A DNA stretch of 64,000 bases from Corallium rubrum. Lineage: Eukaryota > Cnidaria > Anthozoa > Scleralcyonacea > Coralliidae. Under the pieces are notes generated by a model, which saw nothing but the letters and a program-made list of their open reading frames with translations, was not told where the DNA came from and searched no databases. The position numbers were made by a program, and so were the translations under genes. Of the stretch, positions 1,148-62,514 are shown piece after piece. Positions within the stretch are counted from its first letter, which is position 1. The number at the start of each line of letters is the position of its first letter. The stretch is from positions 39,650,559 through 39,714,558 of the forward strand of contig OZ035998.1 in assembly GCA_964035015.1 (NCBI GenBank), read 5' to 3'.

Positions 1148-29419
<28,272 letters not shown>

Positions 29420-38987: not shown

Positions 38988-38995
38988 ATTAATTT
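38988..38995. repeat. Left 8-bp target-site duplication
   Basis: attaattt directly before the left terminal inverted repeat; identical to 55717-55724. Confidence 0.88.
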
Positions 38996-39342
38996 AACCC
39001 CGTGAAGTTAGCTGCCAATTCGCCAGCTGCCAATTCACTGCCAATTAAGATAGCTGCCAATTCAATTTCGCGATGACGCTTCCAGGGGGGAGCGCTCGAG
39101 CAGCAGTCGGCTTCGCAGAATAATCGGTTTCGCCGGTCTTTTAACTTGTTCAATCCAACTTTAACAAAAAATAATAACTCACAATCGATAATTTAAGACA
39201 TTTACGTGCATATAAACAATACTTCTTCAAGTAAACTTATGTTTTAAGATTGCTAGACTTTAATATATTCTCCTTCGAATTAATAACAAACTATTAGTCT
39301 GACAGCCGAGCAGTAATTTGTCGCTACAATGTTTTCTGATAG
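38996..39342 (+). repeat. Left terminal inverted repeat of the satellite element
   Basis: About 345 bp matching the reverse complement of 55374-55716. The outermost 65 bp hold four spaced copies of (g)ctgccaattc, which look like subterminal transposase-binding repeats. Further in are a GC-rich segment (gggggagcgctcgagcagca) and an AT-rich segment. Confidence 0.88.
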
Positions 39343-41795
39343 GTAGATGGGAAATCCGAAAACAGCGTTAGATTCCCCGTAAAACTCTGCATCGATCAGT
39401 ATGAAGCTCACCTTTACAATTTTAAATTGATTGATTTGACTCAAGTCCAAAGACAATTTTTCTGTTTACGCGCGTTAAAGTGCATGACGTATCAAAATAT
39501 AGTGTTACACAGTCTTTTCAAGCTACAAAATTTTCTGATCAGTAGATGGGAAATCTGAAAACAGCGTTGGATTCCCCGTAAAATTCTGCATCGATCAGTA
39601 TGAACCTCACCTTTACAATTTTAAATTGATTAATTTGACTCAAGTCCAACGACAATTTTTCTGTTTACGCACGTTAAAGTGCATCACGTATCAAAATATA
39701 GTGTTACACAGTCTTTTCACGCTACAAAATTTTCTGATCAGTAGATGGGAAATCCGAAAACAGCGTTGGATTCCCCGTAAAATTCTGCATCGATCAGTAT
39801 GAACCTCACCTTTACAATTTTAAATTGATTAATTTGACTCAAGTCCAACGACAATTTTTCTGTTTACGCACGTTAAAGTGCATGACGTATCAAAATATAG
39901 TGTTACACAGTCTTTTCACGCTACAAAATTTTCTGATCAGTAGATGGGAAATCCGAAAACAGCGTTGGATTCCCCGTAAAATTCTGCATCGATCAGTATG
40001 AACCTCACCTTTACAATTTTAAATTGATTAATTTGACTCAAGTCCAACGACAATTTTTCTGTTTACGCACGTTAAAGTGCATCACGTATCAAAATATAGT
40101 GTTACACAGTCTTTTCACGCTACAAAATTTTCTGATCAGTAGATGGGAAATCCGAAAACAGCGTTGGATTCCCCGTAAAATTCTGCATCGATCAGTATGA
40201 ATCTCGCCTTTACAATTTTAAATTGATTAATTTGACTCAAGTCCAACGACAATTTTTCTGTTTACGCACGTTAAAGTGCATGACGTATCAAAATATAGTG
40301 TTACACAGTCTTTTCACGCTACAAAATTTTCTGATCAGTAGATGGGAAATCCGAAAACAGCGTTGGATTCCCCGTAAAATTCTGCATCGATCAGTATGAA
40401 TCTCGCCTTTACAATTTTAAATTGATTAATTTGACTCAAGTCCAAAGACAATTTTTCTGTTTACGCGCTTTAAAGTGCATGACGTATCAAAATATAGTGC
40501 GACACAGTCTTTTCACGCTACAAAATTTTCTGATTCGTAGATGGGAAATCCGAAAACAGTGTTGGATTCCCCGTAAAATTTTGCATCGATCAGTATGAAG
40601 CTCACCTTTACAATTTTAAATTGATTGATTTGACTCACGTCCAAACACAATTTTACTGTTTACGCGCGTTAAAGTGCATGACGTATCAAAATATAGTGCG
40701 ACACAGTCTTTTCACGCTACAAATTTTCTGATCAGTAGATGGGAAATCCGAAAACAGCGTTAGATTCCCCGTAAAATTCTGCATCGATCAGTGGGAAGCT
40801 TACCTTTACAATTTTAAATTGATTGATTTGACTCAAGTCCAAACACAATTTTACTGTTTACGCGCGTTAAAGTGCATGACGTATCAAAATATAGTGCGAC
40901 ACAGTCTTTTCAAGCTACAAAATTTTTTGATTGGTAGATGGGAAATCCGAAAACAGCGTTGGATTCCCCGTAAAATTCTGCATCGATCAGTATGAAGCTC
41001 ACCTTTACAATTTTAAATTGATTGATTTGACTCACGTCCAAACACAATTTTACTGTTTACGCGCGTTAAAGTGCATGACGTATCAAAATATAGTGCGACA
41101 CAGTCTTTTCACGCTACAAAATTTTCTGATCAGTAGATGGAAAATCCGAAAACAGCGTTAGATTCCCCGTAAAATTCTGCATCGATCAGTATGAAGCTCA
41201 CCTTTACAATTTTAAATTGATTGATTTGACTCACGTCCAAAACCAATTTTTCTGTTTACGCGCTTTAAAGTGCATGACGTATCAAAATATAGTGTTACAC
41301 AGTCTTTTCAAGCTACAAAATTTTCTGATTGGTAGATGGGAAATCCGAAAACAGCGTTAGATTCCCCGTAAAATTCTGCATCGATCAGTATGAATCTCAC
41401 CTTTACAATTTTAAATTGATTAATTTGACTCAAGTCCAAAGACAATTTTTCTGTTTACGCACGTTAAAGTGCATGACGTATCAAAATATGGTGTTACACA
41501 GTCTTTTCAAGCTACAAAATTTTTTGATCGGTAGATGGGAAATCCGAAAACAGCGTTGGATTCCCCGTAAAATTCTGCATCGATCAGTATGGAGCTCACC
41601 TTTACAATTTTAAATTGATTGATTTGACTCACGTCCAAACACAATTTTACTGTTTACGCGCGTTAAAGTGCATGACGTACAAAAATATAGTGCGACACAG
41701 TCTTTTCACGCTACAAAATTTTCTGATCAGTAGATGGGAAATCCGAAAACAGAGTTAGATTCCCCGTAAAATTATGCATCGATCAGTATGAAGCT
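39343..41795 (+). repeat. Left array of 199-bp satellite units
   Basis: The anchor gtagatgg recurs at 39343, 39542, 39741, 39940, 40139, 40338, 40537, 40735, 40934, 41133, 41332, 41531 and 41730, a period of 199 bp with one 198. Twelve full units and a partial one. All are of one subtype (tgcatgacgtatcaaaatat, then cacgctac or caagctac). 199 is not a multiple of three and the frames across it do not persist. Confidence 0.96.
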
Positions 41796-43779
41796 TTAAA
41801 TTTAGCAACACCCCCAAGTAATGGAAACAATGTTCCGGATCAAATTATTCAAATATTTGTTTTTGTATTGTATACCACACAAACTGCATCTAGCGGCTTC
41901 CGCAGAAGGACAAACCAACCATTGATTTACGCGTATTGCAAATCTGTGCAATGTTGTTTTTTTCCGAATAAATTTTTTTTTTAAATATTTCGAAATATCG
42001 ATATTTTAATAAAATATTTCAGAGTTGTACCACTATTCAGCAAAATTAAGGTGTTTGATATGCTATTGTTCCCATATTATTTGACATTCCGATTTTTACC
42101 GAGACGAATAAAATTTTCTCGACACGACACACTTCCTTAGCATTTATTCTACCTATAGCTAATGATAAAAACAAGCAACGATGGGCAACTAATTAAATAT
42201 CAGGTAAAACAATTTTATTTGACAGGGAAGAATAGTTTTTACAATAAATACAAACCATGCCAAAAAACAAAATTTATAACAAAAAAAAATTCTTTATTAC
42301 ATATCAAGACAGTATATTTAACTATAGAAATACATCAACGCAACAAACTCCTCACACGCTTTTACACGATGGGCCAATCACTGATTTAAATCACGTAAAT
42401 CTTCAGAAAATAACAAAAAAATCACAAATTAAATATCGAATAAAAAAATCGAGAGAAAAATCAAGAAATCATGACAAAATCACATACCCTCTCTTTCAAA
42501 TAAGCATCCGATTAGTTTTTCTTAAAATATTATAACGCCCCCGTCTCATGTAGTTCTCATAAATGGCTTCTGTCATCAAACCGAAGTAAATATAGTGCAG
42601 TAAAATCGGACTGTCAAGATAAAGCAAAAAAAACAAATCTTTATTCGAAAATATTCAATCAATAAAAAAAACTTGTATCATGCTCCAGTCGTCCCATATA
42701 CACAGCAAAAACAAATGATACTCCCAAAGACTAAAGCGACCAGTAATGGTTTCAATATATAATTTCAAAGCTCATGAACAAAAAAGAAAACAATAATTTA
42801 CGCTCTGTATGATTGTAAAATAATATTCTTTTTACATGCATGGACGTAGTGAAAATGATCTTGTTTCAGATTTTGAAATCGTTTCTGTTTAACAATGATA
42901 GAAAAATCAACGTATTAAAATTAATAGCTCGAAAACTATATATAAGTGATAATCTAACTAAAATAAAACCAGTACAATCTGATAACCATGAGAAAATAAC
43001 GGGCAAGGTTTCAGTAAAAAATATGAAAAACAAGACACCTGCTCAGGCGTTCACTCGAGCTGTACTGATTAATGGGAGGCCGCCTGAGAAGTGGGAGGGG
43101 GGGGGGGCACCGCCAAAAAGGGGCACCTTGGTTATTTTCAAAATAATTGCATAATTTCTTGGTCAGAGGCATTTCTTTTCGAAATAGAATACTTCAATTA
43201 GCCCCAATGTGCTGGAAATTTACATTATATCATATTTTACAAATAACTCTTTTACGTCAACGCTCAGACAAACGCGGCGCAGTAACTCTTTTCTATACAG
43301 CAAATAGCAATGTCATACTTCTATGAAAAGGGTACATTAATTCTTCCCGGGATAGACAATATACCGCAGTTAAATTTAACCACCACATGCAACATTTATA
43401 AAAAGCGAATTTTTATTTGAGAAAAAGGGCACATTTTCCAATTTTTTTTTCCACCGCTTCCACGGCCTCTGATGGCCGCTTGGCCTAGCCTGTAAGTATG
43501 CATAGGCTATTTCGTGGTTGAGTTGTGGCCTATGCACGGAACAGTGCAAGGCCAACAGGGTGCACATAATCGTTTATTAAAAAGTACAAAATACTCAGAG
43601 ACAATCTGAAGCGATTTTAATACGAAACAATACAAAGTACAGTGCAGAATTCAAGCGACATAGATCTAGAATATATTTTTATAGAAAAATATTTTGAAAC
43701 AAAAGGTTATAATACCCCGTTTGCTATGCGTGTGTTCATTGGTCATTGGTCATCACAAGGAGATTTTCATACTGGCAGA
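41796..43779. other. Core of the satellite element, no recognised coding sequence
   Basis: AT-rich, with frames up to about 104 codons (42840-43154) that match no transposase I know. Near 42320 agaaatacatcaacgcaaca resembles the end of the inverted-repeat element at 58139 (agaaatacatgaatgcaaca), so a diverged copy may sit in the core. G-run at about 43097-43107. Confidence 0.5.
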
Positions 43780-46700
43780 TGCAGAAATTTATCGGAAATT
43801 CAACGGTCTTTTCGCATTTCCCATCTACCGATCAGAACATTCTGTAGCTTAAAAAGACTGAGTAGCACAATGTTTAGATACGTCATTCACTTTAACGCCC
43901 GTAAACAGAAAAATTGTCTTTGGACTTGAGTCAAATCAATCAATTTAAAATTGTAAAGGTGAGGTTCATACTGATCGATGCAGAATTTTACGGGAAATCC
44001 AACGCTGTTTTCGGATTTCCCATCTACTGATCAGAAAATTTTGTAGCCTGAAAAGACTATGTAGCACTATATTTAGATACGTCATTCACTTTAACGCCCG
44101 TAAACAGAAAAATTGTCTTTGGACTTGAGTCAAATCAATCAACTTAAAATTGTAAAGGTGAGGTTCATACTGGTCGATGCAGAATTTTACGGGGAATTCA
44201 ACGCTTTTTTCGGATTTCCCATCTACCGATCAGAAAATTTTGTAGCGTGAAAAGACTGTGTAACACTATATTTTGATACGTCATGCACTTTAACGCGCGT
44301 AAACAGAACAATTGTCTTTGGACTTGAGTCAAATCAATCAATTTAAAATTGTGAAGGTGAGGTTCATATTGATCGATGCAGAATTTTACGGGGAATCCAA
44401 CGCTGTTTTCGGATTTCCCATCTACTGACCAGAAAATTTTGTAGCCTGAAAACACTATGTAGCACTATATTTAGACACGTCATTCACTTTAACGCCCGTA
44501 AACAGAAAAATTGTCTTTGGACTTGAGTCAAATCAATCAATTTAAAATTGTAAAGGTAAGGCTCATACTGGTCGATGCAGAATTTTACGGGGAATTCAAC
44601 GCTGTTTTCGGATTTCCCATCTACCGATCAGAAAATTTTGTAGCGTGAAAAGACTGTGTAACACTATATTTTGATACGTCATGCACTTTAACGCGCGTAA
44701 ACAGAAAAATTGTCTTTGGACTTGAGTCAAATCAATCAATTTAAAATTGTGAAGGTGAGGTTCATATTGATCGATGCAGAATTTTACGGGGAATCCAACG
44801 CTGTTTTCGGATTTCCCATCTACTGACCAGAAAATTTTGTAGCCTGAAAACACTATGTAGCACTATATTTAGACACGTCATTCACTTTAACGCCCGTAAA
44901 CAGAAAAATTGTCTTTGGACTTGAGTCAAATCAATCAATTTAAAATTGTAAAGGTGAGGTTCATACTGGTCGATGCAGAATTTTACGGGGAATTCAACGC
45001 TGTTTTTGGATTTCCCACCTACCGATCAGAAAATTTTGTAGCGTGAAAAGACTGTGTAACACTATATTTTGATACGTCATGCACTTTAACGCGCGTAAAC
45101 AGAAAAATTGTCTTTGGACTTGAGTCAAATCAATCAATTTAAAATTGTGAAGGTGAGGTTCATACTGATCGATGCAGAATTTTACGGGGAATCCAACGCT
45201 GTTTTCGGATTTCCCATCTACTGATCAGAAAATTTTGTAGCCTGAAAAGACTATGTAGCACTATATTTAGATACGTCATTCACTTTAACGCCCGTAAACA
45301 GAAAAATTGTCTTTGGACTTGAGTCAAATCAATCAATTTAAAATTGTAAAGGTGAGGTTCATACTGATCGATGCAGAATTTTACGGGAAATCCAACGCTG
45401 TTTTCGGATTTCCCATCTACTGATCAGAAAATTTTGTAGCCTGAAAAGACTATGTAGCACTATATTTAGATACGTCATTCACTTTAACGCCCGTAAACAG
45501 AAAAATTGTCTTTGGACTTGAGTCAAATCAACCAATTTAAAATTGTAAAGGTGAGGTTCATACTGATCGATGCAGAATTTTACGGGAAATCCAACGCTGT
45601 TTTCGGATTTCCCATCTACTGATCAGAAAATTTTGTAGCCTGAAAAGACTATGTAGCACTATATTTAGATACGTCATTCACTTTAACGCCCGTAAACAGA
45701 AAAATTGTCTTTGGACTTGAGTCAAATCAATCAATTTAAAATTGTAAAGGTGAGGTTCATACTGATCGATGCAGAATTTTACGGGGAATTCAACGCTGTT
45801 TTCGGATTTCCCATCTACCGATCAGAAAATTTTGTAGCGTGAAAAGACTGTGTAACACTATATTTTGATACGTCATGCACTTTAACGCGCGTAAACAGAA
45901 AAATTGTCTTTGGACTTGAGTCAAATCAATCAATTTAAAATTGTAAAGGTGAGGTTCATACTGATCGATGCAGAATTTTACGGGGAATCCAACGCTGTTT
46001 TCGGATTTCCCATCTACTGATCAGAAAATTTTGTAGCCTGAAAACACTATGTAGCACTATATTTAGACACGTCATTCACTTTAACGCCCGTAAACAGAAA
46101 AATTGTCTTTGGACTTGAGTCAAATCAATCAATTTAAAATTGTAAAGGTAAGGTTCATACTGGTCGATGCAGAATTTTACGGGGAATTCAACGCTGTTTT
46201 CGGATTTCCCATCTACCGATCAGAAAATTTTGTAGCGTGAAAAGACTGTGTAACACTATATTTTGATACGTCATGCACTTTAACGCGCGTAAACAGAAAA
46301 ATTGTCTTTGGACTTGAGTCAAATCAACCAATTTAAAATTGTAAAGGTGAGGTTCATACTGATCGATGCAGAATTTTACGGGGAATCCAACGCTGTTTTC
46401 GGATTTCCCATCTACTGACCAGAAAATTTTGTAGCCTGAAAAGACTATGTAGCACTATATTTAGATACGTCATTCACTTTAACGCCCGTAAACAGAAAAA
46501 TTGTCTTTGGACTTGAGTCAAATCAATCAATTTAAAATTGTAAAGGTGAGGTTCATACTGGTCGATGCAGAATTTTACGGGGAATTCAACGCTGTTTTCG
46601 GATTTCCCATCTACCGATCAGAAAATTTTGTAGCGTGAAAAGACTGTGTAACACTATATTTTGATACGTCATGCACTTTAACGCGCGTAAACAGAAAAAT

Positions 46701-49700
46701 TGTCTTTGGACTTGAGTCAAATCAACCAATTTAAAATTGTAAAGGTGAGGTTCATACTGATCGATGCAGAATTTTACGGGGAATCCAACGCTGTTTTCGG
46801 ATTTCCCATCTACTGATCAGAAAATTTTGTAGCCTGAAAACACTATGTAGCACTATATTTAGATACGTCATTCACTTTAACGCCCGTAAACAGAAAAATT
46901 GTCTTTGGACTTGAGTCAAATCAATCAATTTAAAATTGTAAAGGTGAGGTTCATACTGGTCGATGCAGAATTTTACGGGGAATTCAACGCTGTTTTCGGA
47001 TTTCCCATCTACCGATCAGAAAATTTTGTAGCGTGAAAAGACTGTGTAACACTATATTTTGATACGTCATGCACTTTAACGCGCGTAAACAGAAAAATTG
47101 TCTTTGGACTTGAGTCAAATCAACCAATTTAAAATTGTAAAGGTGAGGTTCATACTGATCGATGCAGAATTTTACGGGGAATCCAACGCTGTTTTCGGAT
47201 TTCCCATCTACTGACCAGAAAATTTTGTAGCCTGAAAAGACTATGTAGCACTATATTTAGATACGTCATTCACTTTAACGCCCGTAAACAGAAAAATTGT
47301 CTTTGGACTTGAGTCAAATCAATCAATTTAAAATTGTAAAGGTGAGGTTCATACTGATCGATGCAGAATTTTACGGGAAATCCAACGCTGTTTTCGGATT
47401 TCCCATCTACTGATCAGAAAATTTTGTAGCCTGAAAAGACTATGTAGCACTATATTTAGATACGTCATTCACTTTAACGCCCGTAAACAGAAAAATTGTC
47501 TTTGGACTTGAGTCAAATCAACCAATTTAAAATTGTAAAGGTGAGGTTCATACTGATCGATGCAGAATTTTACGGGGAATCCAACGCTGTTTTCGGATTT
47601 CCCATCTACTGACCAGAAAATTTTGTAGCCTGAAAAGACTATGTAGCACTATATTTAGATACGTCATTCACTTTAACGCCCGTAAACAGAAAAATTGTCT
47701 TTGGACTTGAGTCAAATCAATCAATTTAAAATTGTAAAGGTGAGGTTCATACTGGTCGATGCAGAATTTTACGGGGAATTGAACGCTGTTTTCGGATTTC
47801 CCATCTACCGATGAGAAAATTTTGTAGCGTGAAAAGACTGTGTAACACTATATTTTGATACGTCATGCACTTTAACGCGCGTAAACAGAAAAATTGTCTT
47901 TGGACTTGAGTCAAATCAATCAATTTAAAATTGTGAAGGTGAGGTTCATACTGATCGATGCAGAATTTTACGGGGAATCCAACGCTGTTTTCGGATTTCC
48001 CATCTACTGATCAGAAAATTTTGTAGCCTGAAAAGACTATGTAGCACTATATTTAGATACGTCATTCACTTTAACGCCCGTAAACAGAAAAATTGTCTTT
48101 GGACTTGAGTCAAATCAATCAATTTAAAATTGTAAAGGTGAGGTTCATACTGATCGATGCAGAATTTTACGGGGAATCCAACGCTGTTTTCGGATTTCCC
48201 ATCTACTGATCAGAAAATTTTGTAGCCTGAAAAGACTATGTAGCACTATATTTAGATACGTCATTCACTTTAACGCCCGTAAACAGAAAAATTGTCTTTG
48301 GACTTGAGTCAAATCAACCAATTTAAAATTGTAAAGGTGAGGTTCATACTGATCGATGCAGAATTTTACGGGGAATCCAACGCTGTTTTCGGATTTCCCA
48401 TCTACTGATCAGAAAATTTTGTAGCCTGAAAAGACTATGTAGCACTATATTTAGATACGTCATTCACTTTAACGCCCGTAAACAGAAAAATTGTCTTTGG
48501 ACTTGAGTCAAATCAATCAATTTAAAATTGTAAAGGTGAGGTTCATACTGATCGATGCAGAATTTTACGGGGAATTCAACGCTGTTTTCGGATTTCCCAT
48601 CTACCGATCAGAAAATTTTGTAGCGTGAAAAGACTGTGTAACACTATATTTTGATACGTCATGCACTTTAACGCGCGTAAACAGAAAAATTGTCTTTGGA
48701 CTTGAGTCAAATCAATCAATTTAAAATTGTAAAGGTGAGGTTCATACTGATCGATGCAGAATTTTACGGGGAATCCAACGCTGTTTTCGGATTTCCCATC
48801 TACTGATCAGAAAATTTTGTAGCCTGAAAAGACTATGTAGCACTATATTTAGATACGTCATTCACTTTAACGCCCGTAAACAGAAAAATTGTCTTTGGAC
48901 TTGAGTCAAATCAATCAATTTAAAATTGTAAAGGTGAGGTTCATACTGGTCGATGCAGAATTTTACGGGGAATTCAACGCTGTTTTCGGATTTCCCATCT
49001 ACCGATCAGAAAATTTTGTAGCGTGAAAAGACTGTGTAACACTATATTTTGATACGTCATGCACTTTAACGCGCGTAAACAGAAAAATTGTCTTTGGACT
49101 TGAGTCAAATCAATCAATTTAAAATTGTAAAGGTGAGTTCATACTGATCGATGCAGAATTTTACGGGGAATCCAACGCTGTTTTCGGATTTCCCATCTAC
49201 TGATCAGAAAATTTTGTAGCCTGAAAAGATTATGTAGCACTATATTTAGATACGTCATTCACTTTAACGCCCGTAAACAGAAAAATTGTCTTTGGACTTG
49301 AGTCAAATCAACCAATTTAAAATTGTAAAGGTGAGGTTCATACTGATCGATGCAGAATTTTACGGGGAATCCAACGCTGTTTTCGGATTTCCCATCTACT
49401 GATCAGAAAATTTTGTAGCCTGAAAAGACTATGTAGCACTATATTTAGATACGTCATTCACTTTAACGCCCGTAAACAGAAAAATTGTCTTTGGACTTGA
49501 GTCAAATCAATCAATTTAAAATTGTAAAGGTGAGGTTCATACTGGTCGATGCAGAATTTTACGGGGAATTCAACGCTGTTTTCGGATTTCCCATCTACCG
49601 ATCAGAAAATTTTGTAGCGTGAAAAGACTGTGTAACACTATATTTTGATACGTCATGCACTTTAACGCGCGTAAACAGAAAAATTGTCTTTGGACTTGAG

Positions 49701-52700
49701 TCAAATCAATCAATTTAAAATTGTAAAGGTGAGGTTCATACTGATCGATGCAGAATTTTACGGGGAATCCAACGCTGTTTTCGGATTTCCCATCTACTGA
49801 TCAGAAAATTTTGTAGCCTGAAAAGACTATGTAGCACTATATTTAGATACGTCATTCACTTTAACGCCCGTAAACAGAAAAATTGTCTTTGGACTTGAGT
49901 CAAATCAATCAATTTAAAATTGTAAAGGTGAGGTTCATACTGATCGATGCAGAATTTTACGGGAAATCCAACGCTGTTTTCGGATTTCCCATCTACTGAT
50001 CAAAAAATTTTGTAGCCTGAAAAGACTATGTAGCACTATATTTAGATACGTCATTCACTTTAACGCCCGTAAACAGAAAAATTGTCTTTGGACTTGAGTC
50101 AAATCAACCAATTTAAAATTGTAAAGGTGAGGTTCATACTGATCGATGCAGAATTTTACGGGGAATCCAACGCTGTTTTCGGATTTCCCATCTACTGACC
50201 AGAAAATTTTGTAGCCTGAAAAGACTATGTAGCACTATATTTAGATACGTCATTCACTTTAACGCCCGTAAACAGAAAAATTGTCTTTGGACTTGAGTCA
50301 AATCAATCAATTTAAAATTGTAAAGGTGAGGTTCATACTGGTCGATGCAGAATTTTACGGGGAATTCAACGCTGTTTTCGGATTTCCCATCTACTGATCA
50401 GAAAATTTTGTAGCGTGAAAAGACTGTGTAACACTATATTTTGATACGTCATGCACTTTAACGCGCGTAAACAGAAAAATTGTCTTTGGACTTGAGTCAA
50501 ATCAATCAATTTAAAATTGTGAAGGTGAGGTTCATATTGATCGATGCAGAATTTTACGGGGAATCCAACGCTATTTTCGGATTTCCCATCTACTGACCAG
50601 AAAATTTTGTAGCCTGAAAACACTATGTAGCACTATATTTAGACACGTCATTCACTTTAACGCCCGTAAACAGAAAAATTGTCTTTGGACTTGACTCAAA
50701 TCAATCAATTTAAAATTGTAAAGGTAAGGTTCATACTGGTCGATGCAGAATTTTACGGGGAATTCAACGCTGTTTTCGGATTTCCCATCTACCGATCAGA
50801 AAATTTTGTAGCGTGAAAAGACTGTGTAACACTATATTTTGATACGTCATGCACTTTAACGCGCGTAAACAGAAAAATTGTCTTTGGACTTGAGTCAAAT
50901 CAATCAATTTAAAATTGTGAAGGTGAGTTTCATACTGATCGATGCAGAATTTTACGGGGAATCCAACGCTGTTTTCGGATTTCCCATCTACTGATCAGAA
51001 AATTTTGTAGCCTGAAAAGACTATGTAGCACTATATTTAGATACGTCATTCACTTTAACGCCCGTAAACAGAAAAATTGTCTTTGGACTTGAGTCAAATC
51101 AACCAATTTAAAATTGTAAAGGTGAGGTTCATACTGATCGATGCAGAATTTTACGGGAAATCCAACGCTGTTTTCGGATTTCCCATCTACTGATCAGAAA
51201 ATTTTGTAGCCTGAAAAGACTATGTAGCACTATATTTAGATACGTCATTCACTTTAACGCCCGTAAACAGAAAAATTGTCTTTGGACTTGAGTCAAATCA
51301 ACCAATTTAAAATTGTAAAGGTGAGGTTCATACTGATCGATGCAGAATTTTACGGGGAATCCAACGCTGTTTTCGGATTTCCCATCTACTGATCAGAAAA
51401 TTTTGTAGCCTGAAAAGACTATGTAGCACTATATTTAGATACGTCATTCACTTTAACGCCCGTAAACAGAAAAATTGTCTTTGGACTTGAGTCAAATCAA
51501 TCAATTTAAAATTGTAAAGGTGAGGTTCATACTGGTCGATGCAGAATTTTACGGGGAATTCAACGCTGTTTTCGGATTTCCCATCTACCGATCAGAAAAT
51601 TTTGTAGCGTGAAAAGACTGTGTAACACTATATTTTGATACGTCATGCACTTTAACGCGCGTAAACAGAAAAATTGTCTTTGGACTTGAGTCAAATCAAT
51701 CAATTTAAAATTGTGAAGGTGAGGTTCATATTGATCGATGCAGAATTTTACGGGGAATCCAACGCTGTTTTCGGATTTCCCATCTACTGATCAGAAAATT
51801 TTGTAGCCTGAAAAACTATGTAGCACTATATTTAGATACGTCATTCACTTTAACGCCCGTAAACAGAAAAATTGTCTTTGGACTTGAGTCAAATCAATCA
51901 ATTTAAAATTGTAAAGGTGAGGTTCATACTGGTCGATGCAGAATTTTACGGGGAATTCAACGCTGTTTTCGGATTTCCCATCTACCGATCAGAAAATTTT
52001 GTAGCGTGAAAAGACTGTGTAACACTATATTTTGATACGTCATGCACTTTAACGCGCGTAAACAGAAAAATTGTCTTTGGACTTGAGTCAAATCAATCAA
52101 TTTAAAATTGTGAAGGTGAGTTTCATACTGATCGATGCAGAATTTTACCGGGGAATCCAACGCTGTTTTCGGATTTCCCATCTACTGATCAGAAAATTTT
52201 GTAGCCTGAAAAGACTATGTAGCACTATATTTAGATACGTCATTCACTTTAACGCCCGTAAACAGAAAAATTGTCTTTGGACTTGAGTCAAATCAACCAA
52301 TTTAAAATTGTAAAGGTGAGGTTCATACTGATCGATGCAGAATTTTACGGGGAATCCAACGCTGTTTTCGGATTTCCCATCTACTGACCAGAAAATTTTG
52401 TAGCCTGAAAAGACTATGTAGCACTATATTTAGATACGTCATTCACTTTAACGCCCGTAAACAGAAAAATTGTCTTTGGACTTGAGTCAAATCAATCAAT
52501 TTAAAATTGTAAAGGTGAGGTTCATACTGGTCGATGCAGAATTTTACGGGGAATTCAACGCTGTTTTCGGATTTCCCATCTACCGATCAGAAAATTTTGT
52601 AGCGTGAAAAGACTGTGTAACACTATATTTTGATACGTCATGCACTTTAACGCGCGTAAACAGAAAAATTGTCTTTGGACTTGAGTCAAATCAATCAATT

Positions 52701-55373
52701 TAAAATTGTGAAGGTGAGGTTCATATTGATCGATGCAGAATTTTACGGGGAATCCAACGCTGTTTTCGGATTTCCCATCTACTGACCAGAAAATTTTGTA
52801 GCCTGAAAACACTATGTAGCACTATATTTAGACACGTCATTCACTTTAACGCCCGTAAACAGAAAAATTGTCTTTGGACTTGAGTCAAATCAATCAATTT
52901 AAAATTGTAAAGGTAAGGTTCATACTGGTCGATGCAGAATTTTACGGGGAATTCAACGCTGTTTTCGGATTTCCCATCTACCGATCAGAAAATTTTGTAG
53001 GGTGAAAAGACTGTGTAACACTATATTTTGATACGTCATGCACTTTAACGCGCGTAAACAGAAAAATTGTCTTTGGACTTGAGTCAAATCAATCAATTTA
53101 AAATTGTGAAGGTGAGTTTCATACTGATCGATGCAGAATTTTACGGGGAATCCAACGCTGTTTTCGGATTTCCCATCTACTGATCAGAAAATTTTGTAGC
53201 CTGAAAAGACTATGTAGCACTATATTTAGATACGTCATTCACTTTAACGCCCGTAAACAGAAAAATTGTCTTTGGACTTGAGTCAAATCAATCAATTTAA
53301 AATTGTAAAGGTGAGGTTCATACTGGTCGATGCAGAATTTTACGGGGAATTCAACGCTGTTTTCGGATTTCCCATCTACCGATCAGAAAATTTTGTAGCG
53401 TGAAAAGACTGTGTAACACTATATTTTGATACGTCATGCACTTTAACGCGCGTAAACAGAAAAATTGTCTTTGGACTTGAGTCAAATCAATCAATTTAAA
53501 ATTGTGAAGGTGAGGTTCATATTGATCGATGCAGAATTTTACGGGGAATCCAACGCTGTTTTCGGATTTCCCATCTACTGACCAGAAAATTTTGTAGCCT
53601 GAAAAGACTATGTAGCACTATATTTAGACACGTCATTCACTTTAACGCCCGTAAACAGAAAAATTGTCTTTGGACTTGAGTCAAATCAATCAATTTAAAA
53701 TTGTAAAGGTAAGGTTCATACTGGTCGATGCAGAATTTTACGGGGAATTCAACGCTGTTTTCGGATTTCCCATCTACCGATCAGAAAATTTTGTAGCGTG
53801 AAAAGACTGTGTAACACTATATTTTGATACGTCATGCACTTTAACGCGCGTAAACAGAAAAATTGTCTTTGGACTTGAGTCAAATCAATCAATTTAAAAT
53901 TGTGAAGGTGAGTTTCATACTGATCGATGCAGAATTTTACGGGGAATCCAACGCTGTTTTCGGATTTCCCATCTACTGATCAGAAAATTTTGTAGCCTGA
54001 AAAGACTATGTAGCACTATATTTAGATACGTCATTCACTTTAACGCCCGTAAACAGAAAAATTGTCTTTGGACTTGAGTCAAATCAATCAATTTAAAATT
54101 GTAAAGGTAAGGTTCATACTTTTCGATGCAGAATTTTACGGGGAATTCAACGCTGTTTTCGGATTTCCCATCTACCGATCAGAAAATTTTGTAGCGTGAA
54201 AAGACTGTGTAACACTATATTTTGATACGTCATGCACTTTAACGCGCGTAAACAGAAAAATTGTCTTTGGACTTGAGTCAAATCAATCAATTTAAAATTG
54301 TGAAGGTGAGTTTCATACTGATCGATGCAGAATTTTACGGGGAATCCAACGCTGTTTTCGGATTTCCCATCTACTGATCAGAAAATTTTGTAGCCTGAAA
54401 AGACTATGTAGCACTATATTTAGATACGTCATTCACTTTAACGCCCGTAAACAGAAAAATTGTCTTTGGACTTGAGTCAAATCAACCAATTTAAAATTGT
54501 AAAGGTGAGGTTCATACTGATCGATGCAGAATTTTACGGGGAATCCAACGCTGTTTTCGGATTTCCCATCTACTGACCAGAAAATTTTGTAGCCTGAAAA
54601 GACTATGTAGCACTATATTTAGATACGTCATTCACTTTAACGCCCGTAAACAGAAAAATTGTCTTTGGACTTGAGTCAAATCAATCAATTTAAAATTGTA
54701 AAGGTGAGGTTCATACTGGTCGATGCAGAATTTTACGGGGAATCCAACGCTGTTTTCGGATTTCCCATCTACTGATCAGAAAATTTTGTAGCGTGAAAAG
54801 ACTGTGTAACACTATATTTTGATACGTCATGCACTTTAACGCGCGTAAACAGAAAAACTGTCTTTGGACTTGAGTCAAATCAATCAATTTAAAATTGTGA
54901 AGGTGAGGTTCATACTGATCGATGCAGAATTTTACGGGGAATCCAACGCTGTTTTCGGATTTCCCATCTACTGATCAGAAAATTTTGTAGCGTGAAAAGA
55001 CTGTGTAACACTATATTTTGATACGTCATGCACTTTAACGTGCGTAAACAGAAAAGTTGTCTTTGGACTTGAGTCAAATCAATCAATTTAAAATTGTAAA
55101 GGTGAGGTTCATACTGATCGATGCAGAATTTTACGGGGAATCCAACGCTGTTTTCGGATTTCCCATCTACTGATCAGAAAATTTTGTAGCGTGAAAAGAC
55201 TGTGTAACACTATATTTTGATACGTCATGCACTTTAACGCGCGTAAACAGAAAAATTGTCTTTGGACTTGAGTCAAATCAATCAATTTAAAATTGTAAAG
55301 GTGAGCTTCATACTGATCGATGCAGAGTTTTACGGGGAATCTAACGCTGTTTTCGGATTTCCCATCTACCTAT
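43780..55373 (-). repeat. Right array of 199-bp satellite units, two subtypes
   Basis: About 58 units in reverse orientation to the left array, 199-bp period (for example cggatttccc at 44012, 44211, 44410). Subtype A has tagcgtgaaaagactgtgta and cgcgcgtaaacag; subtype B has tagcctgaaaagactatgta and cgcccgtaaacag. A and B alternate singly or as A-B-B-B, while the three units next to the right end are all A, as in the left array. The core-proximal first unit is diverged. Repeated 85-codon frames are artefacts. Confidence 0.96.
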
Positions 55374-55716
55374 CAGAAAACATTGTAGCGACAAATTACT
55401 GCTCGGCTGTCAGACTAATAGTTTGTTATTAATTCGAAGGAGAATATATTAAAGTCTAGCACTCTTAAAACATAAGTTTACTTGAAGAAGTATTGTTTAT
55501 ATGCACGTAAATGTCTTAAATTATCGATTGTGAGTTATTATTTTTTGTTAAAGTTGGATTGAACAAGTTAAAAGACCGACGAAACCGATTATTCTGCGAA
55601 GCCGACTGCTGCTCGAGCGCTCCCCCCTGGAAGCGTCATCGCGAAATTGAATTGGCAGCTATCTTAATTGGCAGTGAATTGGCAGCTGGCGAATTGGCAG
55701 CTAACTTCACGGGGTT
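55374..55716 (-). repeat. Right terminal inverted repeat of the satellite element
   Basis: Reverse complement of 38996-39342 with few differences, including the mirrored ggcagct-containing subterminal repeats. The edge satellite unit next to it shares the private variants of the left edge unit (gcagagttttacgggg, aatctaacgctg). Confidence 0.88.
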
Positions 55717-55724
55717 ATTAATTT
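55717..55724. repeat. Right 8-bp target-site duplication
   Basis: attaattt directly after the right terminal inverted repeat; identical to 38988-38995. Confidence 0.88.
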
Positions 55725-56156: not shown

Positions 56157-56457
56157 AGGGGAACTGGTAGGAAACTTACGAAACCGGAAACGATGTTTGC
56201 ACAACTTGCTATGGTAATTATACACTTATAAGGGGCTAATGCACCTAATGGGTGGTCCTACGCACATGGCTACAATCAGACACTACTGACTTAAGTGATA
56301 TTACACTATTGTTTAATTTCAGCAATGGTTGATCCTGGCCATGTGGGATCACTCGTTAGTGCATTAGCTGCTTAATATAAGTGTATACTTACCATAGCAA
56401 GTTGTGCAAACATCGTTTCCGGTTTCGTAAGTTTCCTATCCAGTTCCCCTTCCCCAT
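56157..56457. repeat. Inverted repeat with about 100-bp arms
   Basis: aactggtaggaaacttacga onward (56161-56243) is the inverse of 56357-56455 (to tcgtaagtttcctatccagtt), including gcaaacatcgtttccgg. Spacer of about 110 bp. Probable MITE; no duplication established. Confidence 0.65.
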
Positions 56458-60338: not shown

Positions 60339-62471
60339 TTATTTATTTATTTTATTTTATTTTATTTGCTTTGCCATACTCAAACAATACGTACAGACAT
60401 CGACAAAAACAACTGGCAGGGCAACCGCAACAGCTTACGCCAATTACTGCGGTCCCTAAAGATTACAACAAATACAACTACAGTACACCAGATAATTACA
60501 AACATTAAGCTAAAAACAACACGATATCGATTTAGTTAGATCACGAGCTTTGTTGCATTTGATGCATATCGATTTCCATGTTCGTGGATCATCTGCATTA
60601 AAACAGTGTTCTAGTGCTAAATTATAGTAATTATATAGTCCTTTTTTAAAGTCTTTTAAAGTTATACATTTAATTGTTAAGTTCCTTGGCAATACGTTCC
60701 AGATTCTAGATGTCCTAATTAAAAATGATTTCTGATACGTAGATGTTTTACATTTTGTTGTCTGAAATTGTAAAACAGTTTGGGTTTGCTGATCGTGTAG
60801 GTCTATTTGAATTTTGAGGTTCTGGTAGTATGTCACTGCTTAAGTTAATAATGTTATGATTTGATTTGAAAAGGAACAACATGTCAAGGTATTCGTGCCA
60901 GTAACATAAAGGAAGTAGATTTAACGTTAAGAGACGATGGTTATAACTGATGTCACAGAAGAAGGGTAGGTCCATTATATATTTTGATGCGCGTCTTTGG
61001 ACGCGTTCCGTGCGCTTGATAAGGTCGATAGACTGTGGAGCCCAGACTTGCAATGCGTAAGCGAGTTGGGAACAGACGAGAGCTAGATAAAGTGTTCGAC
61101 GGACAGAGAAGTTCTTGATTTTTATCGTGGACCCAGTAATTTGTTGGCTTGGGCGCACTGGTGGAGGACTTGTTTGGACCAGGTAAGTGTGGAAGAGGTC
61201 CAGACGCCGAGGTCACGTTCGCAGTCTGTGGTGTTCAAAATGGTATCTTGCAGCTTGTAATGATACTCAATTTTATTATGTTTTCTGGTAATTCGTAGTG
61301 TCTCACATTTAGCTGTGTTGAGAAGAAGATTAGCATTGGCGGAGCAGGTTTGGAAGTTCGTAAGATCATTCTGCATAGAAGATGCATCAGACTCTGAATT
61401 TATTTCCTGGAAAATCTTTGTGTCATCAGCAAAAGTTACGATTTTTGAATTACAAACGGATTTGGAAAGATTGTTCTGATACAATAAAAATAGTAGCGGG
61501 CCAAAGATTGAACCTTGCGCACTCCGGAGGTTACTGGTAGTGGTGATGATGTTGCACCAAGTACTGTAGTCTTTTGGCGACGGTCTTTGAGGTAAGAGCT
61601 GAACCAATTCAGAATGCTATCTCCAAATCCAAAATCGCGAAGTCGATTAAGAAGTTGCATGTGGCTGACTCTATCAAATGCCTTTGACATATCCAAATAG
61701 ATTACATCTACCTGTTTGCCGAGATCAAGCTGACGACCAATATAATCAAAGACTTCAATGAGCTGTGTAACACAGGATTTTCCAGGAACAAAGCCATGTT
61801 GACCAGTGTAGATCTGTTCGAAAACGCGGTCTTTGATTTTGTTAAAAACGCATCTTTCCAGTACTTTTGAGATAAGAGAAAGAAGAGAGATTGGCCGATA
61901 GTTTTCTACATTCTCTTTATTATCTTTTTTATGGACAGGAACAACATTTGCCAGTTTCCAGTCGCGTGGTAACACACCAGTGCTTAGAGACTTGTTGAAC
62001 AGGGCAGTGAGTGAAGGAGCAATTTGATGAGCGGCTACTGTCAATAATCGTGCTGGAATCCCATCCAGGCCTTGAGCTTTATTACTATCCAGATTATTTA
62101 AGACAGAGACAACATCCTCTTGTGTAAGGGTAATATTCTCCACGATAGTATTGTCAGATTGTCCTTGACGAGGTTCAGTATAAACAGTACTACAGTTTTC
62201 AATATTTGGATCAGTGGTAAAGATAGATGTAAAGTAGTTGTTGAAGAGAGTAGCAATATCTGCTGCGTTTTCTGCGTACGTCCTATCAGTTTCAGTTACT
62301 TTCATAGAGAGCTTTTCAGGAATGTTGCGAGTCTTGGAGTTGAGCTTAAATAGCGACCAGAAGCGTTTGGGATTGTGTCCACGGTAGGCACAAATAGAGT
62401 TGATGTACTTGGAGCGACTGTCACGCAACATGCGTTTGATTGAGGCACGAATGTTTTTAAACATTAAGGTT
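60339..62471 (-). pseudogene. 5'-truncated non-LTR retrotransposon (CR1/L2 group), RT domain
   Basis: On the - strand from 62464: MFKNIRASIKRMLRDS, AADIATLFNNYFTSIF, NKAQGLDGIPARLL, VENYRPISLLSLISKVLERC, VIYLDMSKAFDRV; then after a frameshift near 61500 the catalytic VTFADDTKIF and CERDLGVWTSSTLTWSKQV; then after another shift TLYLALVCSQLAYALQVW and RVQRRASKYIM, ending near 60510 with a CxxC...CC-type tail. The endonuclease is missing. A (TTTA/TTTTA)n tail lies at 60339-60370 (an A-rich tail on the coding strand). AGTAT flanks both sides (60334-60338, 62472-62476), consistent with target-primed insertion. Few lesions, so relatively young. Related to 17880-20899. Confidence 0.9.
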
Positions 62472-62514
62472 AGTATATCTAACCTTACTATATTTCGATT
62501 AATGTAATACGGCT

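Follow-up and report, generated by a model that had tools for sequence, protein, structure and literature searches.

In Tetris, a foldback element of Drosophila virilis, each terminal inverted repeat (TIR) is reported to consist of an outer flanking domain and tandem units of ∼220 bp (TIR-220), with a middle domain between the two TIRs; the miniature inverted-repeat transposable element (MITE) DAIBAM has the same ends, and the sections of that report on which we draw record that no transposase was found and that Tetris was placed tentatively in Mutator (PMC4079207). Among the Mutator-like elements (MULEs), reinsertion of Muta1 produced target-site duplications (TSDs) of 8 or 9 bp without sequence preference, and the sections of the same source dealing with Aedes MULEs give TSDs of 8 to 9 bp for 14 of 14 families and TIRs of >100 bp for 12 of 14, with short subterminal repeats in 10 of these 12 (PMC5225508). 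Here we describe a foldback-like element of Corallium rubrum whose arms are two opposed arrays of a 199-bp unit. It lies in a 64,000-nucleotide stretch of genomic DNA (bases 39650559 to 39714558 of contig OZ035998.1, C8 in our numbering; hereafter, the window), and the window copy is referred to as E10.

Architecture of the window element

A sequence-only reading of the window had proposed a foldback-like element with a TSD, and this observation is confirmed. The element spans 38996 to 55716, its first bases being AACCCCGTG and its last CACGGGGTT, and the flanks read CCTA-ATTAATTT before it and ATTAATTT-ATAA after it, a perfect 8-bp TSD with copies at 38988..38995 and 55717..55724. Alignment of the ends, together with genome matches for the left one, delimits the unique part of the left TIR at 38996..39321 (326 bp, forward strand) and that of the right TIR at 55390..55716 (327 bp, reverse strand, 2 differences from the left), lengths above the 100 bp looked for in a MULE. 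The outermost 420 bases of the two ends are identical at 418 positions, the final ∼95 of the 420 already being array. The earlier reading took the inverted ends to be identical and put the TIR at ∼345 bp, ∼20 bp of which belong to the first unit. Four CTGCCAATT motifs, seen on reading the sequence and in an alignment of subfamilies, fall within the first 68 bp of the TIR (39012..39062, forward strand).

The two opposed 199-bp arrays of about 12 and 58 units were reproduced by Tandem Repeats Finder. The left arm (39322..41795, forward strand) has a period of 199 bp, 12.4 copies, and 95% matches; the right arm (43766..55389, reverse strand) has 58.4 copies of the same repeat in the opposite orientation, making 13 left and 59 right units when partial units are counted. 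The ∼2-kb core between the arms and the perfect 8-bp duplication on both flanks were likewise borne out at this copy, the core measuring 1,970 bp (41796..43765, forward strand). The longest inverted-repeat pair in the element is 1,733 nucleotides long, at 96%. The core holds no convincing gene, its longest wholly internal open reading frame (ORF) being 104 amino acids, and a coding core was rejected for this copy. Homology between TIR and unit was also rejected (best local score of 18 against a null mean of 18.5). An Rfam search returned no match at gathering scores, and a DNA search of the TIR against plasmid records, where a match was hardly to be expected, returned none.

A dispersed family with variable arms and cores

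The terminal repeats are not confined to the window, a possibility that the sequence-only reading had raised against its own proposal and that we examined genome-wide. Across 474 Mb in 312 contigs, the TIR search gave a match at 40 of 40 scored places, out of 234 candidates, and a 23-base end pattern with ≤3 mismatches was found 137 times forward and 136 times in reverse (273 ends), compared with 0 matches in a reversed-control search with the same pattern. Pairing rests on the 100 listed ends of the 273, all exact. These yield 33 pairs of opposite orientation, spanning from 408 bp to 69 kb (median, 10.9 kb); the two largest, at 44 and 69 kb, may join unrelated ends, and copies with one mutated end are not included. 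Both the size of the window copy (16.7 kb) and its ∼5:1 arm asymmetry, which had been thought unusual, are ordinary for the family, in which asymmetry runs in either direction. Besides the window copy, the sequence analyzed comprised 13 further complete or nearly complete elements, seven small pairs, parts of E04 and of E24 (on contig C186), the 701-bp centers of 12 pairs, and the ends of two of these. Within a copy, the two TIRs differ at 1 to 3 of 327 positions in E02, E05, E10, E17, E18, E19, and E20. On contig C37, five exact family ends of alternating orientation lie within ∼217 kb (221289-437890).

The order of array, core, and mirror array recurs in all 14 elements first analyzed (the window copy and the 13 others), and six further copies have the same architecture. 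TIRs enclose both ends in these 14, the right TIR of E06 lying beyond the sequence obtained and the left TIR of E01 being partial there. Counted as left/right and oriented by the core wherever a core is shared, the arms hold 13/59 units in E10, 12/45 in E02, 10/17 in E20, 9/10 in E22, 16/9 in E18, 17/25 in E05, 44/27 in E13, 41/47 in E06, 72/19 in E19, 14/9 in E17, 50/8 in E03, 14/22 in E14, 10/8 in E11, and 6/8 in E01. E04, at 33.9 kb, has a left array of ∼15.4 kb, or ∼77 units as estimated by length (5.3 kb of the array being unread), followed by the core and by a right array broken by a nested long terminal repeat (LTR) retrotransposon. By manual reading, this insertion (L044, ∼1278-7069) is Bel/Pao-like, and because its 203-bp LTRs are identical it probably entered an already long element recently. 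The family further includes a copy in which the mirror arrays meet head-on and the core is absent (L049) and an array-free copy of 408 bp with an 8-bp TSD (L052). Nested within E05 is a near-perfect palindrome of 4.98 kb (L021:2428-7405; C1 ∼24258228-24263205), with 99.7% self-complementarity. Each of its arms contains a C2H2-finger-like ORF, its ends read AGTAGC..., its TSD is CATGCA, and from its signature it looks Polinton derived.

Exact TSDs were found in 17 of the 24 copies tested, 11 of them 8 bp and 6 of them 9 bp long. A first set comprised 15 elements for which both ends were known: 12 had exact TSDs flush with the ends (7 of 8 bp and 5 of 9 bp), E03 had a 9-bp TSD with one mismatch, and E13 and E14 had no clear TSD; the seven small pairs added 5 exact TSDs (four of 8 bp and one of 9 bp), and two further copies, on contigs C25 and C56, added none. 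This is far more than chance would give: 0 of 210 mismatched flank pairs shared ≥7 bases flush with the ends, against the 12 of 15 exact matches of 8 to 9 bp in true pairs. E01 was excluded from this count, its outer left end (C1:6773063) having been identified only later, and the 9-bp TSD of E04 supposes a substituted last TIR base, becoming 10 bp if that base was lost. The 8-bp duplication to be looked for at each copy is present at 11, with 9 bp at six and no exact duplication at the rest. Long TIRs of tandem units whose length varies between copies and between ends are the mark of foldback (FB-like) elements, and their transposition is reflected here in the 17 of 24 exact TSDs and in 273 ends at different sites.

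Three copies (L053, L054, and L055) have ends like those of the window family but a unit of 188 bp. Their TIRs are 79 to 84% like the window TIR over ∼280 bp, and the two units have a block of ∼70 to 75 bp in common, with lower likeness outside it. Over its first 68 bp, the TIR does not differ at all between these three copies and the window; L049 and L052 each have a single changed base there, and the right end of L050 has a deletion. We infer that these 68 bp, with their four CTGCCAATT motifs, are a candidate transposase-binding region.

The cores are more varied. Among 10 full-core copies, pairwise divergence is 0.2 to 1.2%; E22 has an internal deletion and E14 a shortened core. The cores of E11 and of a copy on contig C13 (L046) contain an exon-like piece with relatives on C68 and C104. 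This piece, which carries a splice acceptor and was seen in two elements and two further loci (L010:2925-3215; L046:853-1799; L047; L048), gives a weak, below-cutoff match to the PWWP3A/B C-terminal domain (PWP3A-B_C) in E11, and capture of a host gene is possible. The E01 core contains a long interspersed nuclear element (LINE) reverse-transcriptase fragment by manual reading, Pfam returning no reverse-transcriptase match, and the L053 core contains a reverse-transcriptase-like ORF, again by manual reading. Pieces of this sort would be candidates for the foreign sequence captured by non-autonomous, Pack-MULE-like copies. Of the 12 pair centers sampled, 7 were 188-bp arrays or matching core, and manual reading of the other 5 gave Penelope-like (PLE-like), integrase-like, PolB-like, and gag-like ORFs and one center without anything. 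The integrase-like (L064, C25:6862216-6886671) and PolB-like (L066, C56:3879807-3901283) ORFs are of Polinton type. Since 188-bp arrays flank them, at both ends of the C25 copy (L068 and L069) and at the left end of the C56 copy (L070), and since the exact TSDs of the family are of 8 to 9 bp, Polinton parentage was rejected and these ORFs are probably nested insertions, less clearly so for the C56 copy, whose rearranged right end retains only the first ∼69 bp of the TIR. The C25 insert opens with a segment like TIR positions 79 to 128 in inverse orientation (L068:843-893), which may mean that a different mobile element has part of this TIR in common with the family.

Turnover of the arms

The 604 full units obtained represent 408 distinct sequences. 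Multi-copy unit types number 103; for 73 of these, every copy lies in a single element, and for 72 of the 73, in a single arm. The longest run of identical units is 6 within an arm and 3 between elements. For 309 of the 604 units, the closest counterpart is confined to the arm that holds the unit itself, and for 15 it is confined to the opposite arm of that element, with 148 ties; 8 of the 11 arms with ≤9 full units contain no identical twins.

Comparison of the window copy with E17 is especially informative. Their cores differ at 6 of 1,959 sites, their right TIRs have two private bases in common, and their right arms, of 59 and 9 units, have the outermost and innermost full units in common; all 58 full units of the window right arm are 0 to 4 nucleotides (mean, 1.7) from one of the 8 full units of E17. 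The left arms, of 13 and 14 units, have also turned over despite their near-equal counts, only 3 of the 12 full window units having an exact match in E17. The cores of E20, E03, and E05 are equally close (4 to 5 of ∼1,979 sites), with arms of 10/17, 50/8, and 17/25 units. Arms thus seem to lengthen in place by block duplication, each arm independently, and we infer a short-armed ancestry of the copies.

The fixed termini, TIRs, TSDs, many copies, mirror-oriented arms of tandem units, and variable arm lengths were observed directly, and we consider it likely that the family is a non-autonomous foldback DNA transposon, probably moved by a MULE transposase encoded elsewhere, that inserts with short arms which then grow in place. 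Such a transposase would bind the outermost 68 bp of the ends, which are nearly invariant, and the copy inserted would have arms of ∼8 to 16 units each and generate an 8- or 9-bp TSD. Each arm would subsequently grow or shrink alone as unequal exchange or replication slippage duplicated blocks of one to several units, so that a single insertion could give rise to two independent satellite-like arrays reaching 72 units as counted (E19) or ∼77 by length (E04). A further step, for which we judge the chances to be about even, is that this process amounts to insertion-seeded satellite birth, in which each transposition plants two short mirror arrays that expand independently and very fast, at tens of units per ∼0.3% core divergence, and in which the middle can flip by recombination.

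Recombination between the opposed arms may also invert the middle of an element, and E05 is a likely case. On the core side, all 10 pairs compared have units that correspond between like arms. For E05 and E20, this same-arm fit (7 versus 61 differences) gives way on the TIR side to a fit between swapped arms (19 versus 42 differences); against E03, the TIR-side units of E05 again fit the opposite arms (32 versus 46 differences). Gene conversion acting on the ends would be another explanation.

Several observations sit uneasily with transposition of short-armed copies by a MULE enzyme followed by growth in place. The arms of the older subfamily (E01, 6/8; E11, 10/8; E14, 14/22) and of the diverged small copies L049 and L050 are not longer than those of young copies, so growth is not steady with age, and loss must offset it or growth must slow as units diverge. 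Collinearity among short arms is partial (18 of 74 pairs at P ≤ 0.05 and 5 at P ≤ 0.01, with E14 left out), 30 of the 103 multi-copy types are common to several elements, and 132 of the 604 units have their closest counterpart solely in another element. Arm length correlates with nearest-unit distance across 28 arms (Spearman, −0.88), partly as a consequence of unit number, and shows no trend with mean pairwise distance (−0.12; P = 0.55). It is possible that the E17 arm contracted rather than that the window arm grew. The TIR-side test is noisy, the other eight pairs giving six same-arm results, one tie, and one slightly swapped result (E20/E17). In addition, 7 of 24 copies lack an exact TSD, and the 98 genome matches to the MULE domain PF10551 all fall outside the 33 pairs and more than 30 kb from each of the 100 ends listed among the 273, so that the longer, transposase-bearing copy envisaged by the sequence-only reading did not appear there.

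The same reading had the element carrying a satellite, amplifying it, and perhaps dispersing it. A 20-base unit tag, present in 530 of the 604 full units, occurs 1,083 times in the genome, corresponding to ∼1,200 units or 0.25 Mb if it is equally frequent elsewhere. The 100 tag places listed fall in E01 (10), E02 (45), and E03 (45), all inside elements. In total, 654 of the 1,083 tags were placed in family elements, of which the 14 elements account for 547 and other copies showing one TIR or both account for 107 (68 from the middle and 4 from the left end of E04, 7 from the C186 end, 11 from L049, 12 from L051, and 5 from L046); 3 lie in an array on C68 whose outer end is outside the sequence seen, and 426 were not located. 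No free array outside elements was found among the tags placed, and as far as we have seen, the 199-bp repeat is the element's own arm rather than an independent satellite. Expansion, moreover, looks local, arm by arm at each site, and not like something transported between sites.

These counts bear directly on the idea that a host satellite was captured and then dispersed by a transposon. The length and homogeneity of the unit are satellite-like, and the unique TIR resembles the unit no more than chance would allow; the placed tags, however, included no free array, and a diverged 188-bp unit occupies the same position in the sister subfamily, which marks the arm repeat as an old part of the family, so that we regard capture as quite improbable. 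A more serious competitor, though still an unlikely one, is that the arrays were full length before transposition, a unit of 10 to 30 kb moving with its arms and copies differing mainly by contraction. Exact TSDs around very long-armed copies (E19, 72/19; E04, 33.9 kb; the window copy, 13/59) and the rather short arms of older-subfamily copies are in its favor, but most of the expanded blocks occur in a single element, and there in a single arm (72 of 73 types), no common run of >3 identical units occurs between compared elements, and the window right arm resembles a multiplied E17 arm. That the 58-unit array is an artefact of assembly is scarcely credible, despite the difficulty of assembling tandem arrays: of its 58 full units, 41% are without an identical twin in the arm, which shows that a single block was not simply repeated, and the architecture recurs in 13 other copies, each of these 13 with its own unit variants, and in six more.

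Mobilization, surroundings, and known systems

Matches to PF10551 are abundant: 150 of 223 candidates were scored, and the 98 that matched include many in which a long reading frame is open. The MULE loci L029 to L036, which at ∼3.3 kb may stop short of the element ends, carry no family-like TIR (best, 14 bases). The assignment to MULEs is drawn from the mixture of TSDs (8 bp in 11 copies and 9 bp in 6, within the 8 to 10 bp of MULEs and matching the 8 or 9 bp of Muta1), the TIR length, the subterminal motifs, and the varied cores. The hAT and P superfamilies, by comparison, have a constant 8-bp TSD. The sequence-only reading, which inferred hAT-, P-, or Merlin-type transposition from 8 bp, was correct that the element transposed and that the TSD is real. 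Exact 8-bp TSDs in the window copy and 10 others would suit hAT or P, but the exact 9-bp TSDs in 6 of 17 copies argue against both and point to Mutator or Merlin; E03, with 9 bp and one mismatch, and ends of the form AACCCCGTG, unlike hAT or P termini, add to this, making either superfamily very improbable. Merlin TSDs are 8 to 9 bp, which would fit. Against a Merlin rather than a Mutator enzyme, an option we consider improbable, stand the abundance of MULE domains in the genome and the combination of long TIRs, subterminal repeats, and varied interiors that is typical of MULEs in the portions of the literature used here (PMC5225508).

Other repeats were noted in the window. Immediately to the right of the element is a 271-bp MITE-like sequence (56168-56438) with 63-bp inverted ends (98%). 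A 112-bp inverted repeat at 16598-17257 (arms 16598-16709 and 17146-17257; 96%) is adjoined by a 112-bp tandem duplication at 16938-17149 (98%), and about six telomere-type ACCCTA units lie chromosome-internally at 12769-12804. LINE fragments with long reverse-transcriptase-like ORFs are present at 24610-27511 and 60748-62512, the best named relative of the latter ORF being from the octocoral Paramuricea clavata (78%).

The origin and growth rate of a satellite array are usually hard to read because arrays have neither a clock nor a known starting state. In this family, many insertions descend from a common start, each with two separately changing arms and with a core and TIRs that date the copy, so that growth rate, duplication block size, and the role of orientation become measurable. 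The family also separates two easily merged ideas, a transposon that disperses a satellite and a transposon arm that turns satellite-like after landing. If insertion-seeded growth is true, every landing site and every arm would be a replicate experiment in satellite growth with a built-in clock in the core and TIRs, offering a way to watch the birth of satellite DNA.

Parallels with described systems are partial; in what follows, each comparison is limited to the sections of the source that we used. The Cg_HINE Helentrons of the Pacific oyster are likewise dispersed and non-autonomous and carry arrays of ∼140- to 180-bp units, but they belong to the Helentron class, with arrays mostly of ≤5 and at most 29 monomers, whereas the family here has two opposed arrays inside long TIRs with TSDs (PMC7492417). 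Galileo, of the P superfamily, has long TIRs, subfamilies, ∼210-bp tandem repeats in one of these, and two TIRs that change independently within a copy; it differs in having ≤3 units, TIRs of up to ∼1.26 kb, 7-bp bounding sequences, and a P-type transposase (PMC3573991). Tm1 (Mutator/Foldback, Meloidogyne) has composite TIRs made unequal by tandem units, TSDs of 8 to 10 bp, MITE-like members, and a variable interior, but its units are ∼14 bp in 1 to 9 copies, its 7-bp outer motifs are asymmetric, and one member bears a transposase (PMC3169594). Muta1 and the Aedes aegypti MULEs resemble the family in TSD length (8 or 9 bp, with no preference for any sequence), in having long TIRs and short tandem repeats near the ends, and in their non-autonomous derivatives with varied interiors; their subterminal repeats are 9 to 15 bp, kilobase-scale arms of ∼200-bp units are not mentioned in those sections, and Muta1 has a known active transposase, whereas none is linked to the family here (PMC5225508).

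Tetris, also a non-autonomous foldback element, has TSDs of 8 to 10 bp and units that additionally form longer satellite-like arrays (PMC4079207). Its TIRs are ≤1,735 bp, with two alleles of 3 versus 4 units, and its long arrays (≤66) are satellite DNA arrays, the larger of which were suggested to disrupt the element, whereas here up to 72 counted units stand inside TSD-flanked elements; moreover, the Tetris unit and TIR have 37 bp in common (PMC4079207), whereas ours show no similarity, and the likeness drawn here between the two elements is structural. We found no element with arms this long in the literature searched, which is not proof of absence, and as far as that literature shows, the scale of the arms in TSD-flanked copies, the evidence from sister copies for arm-by-arm growth, and a repeat apparently confined to the element are new. 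The window element is a very large, new variant of the foldback elements, nearest to Tetris in build, to Muta1 in its TSDs, and to Tm1 and Galileo in the behavior of its TIRs.

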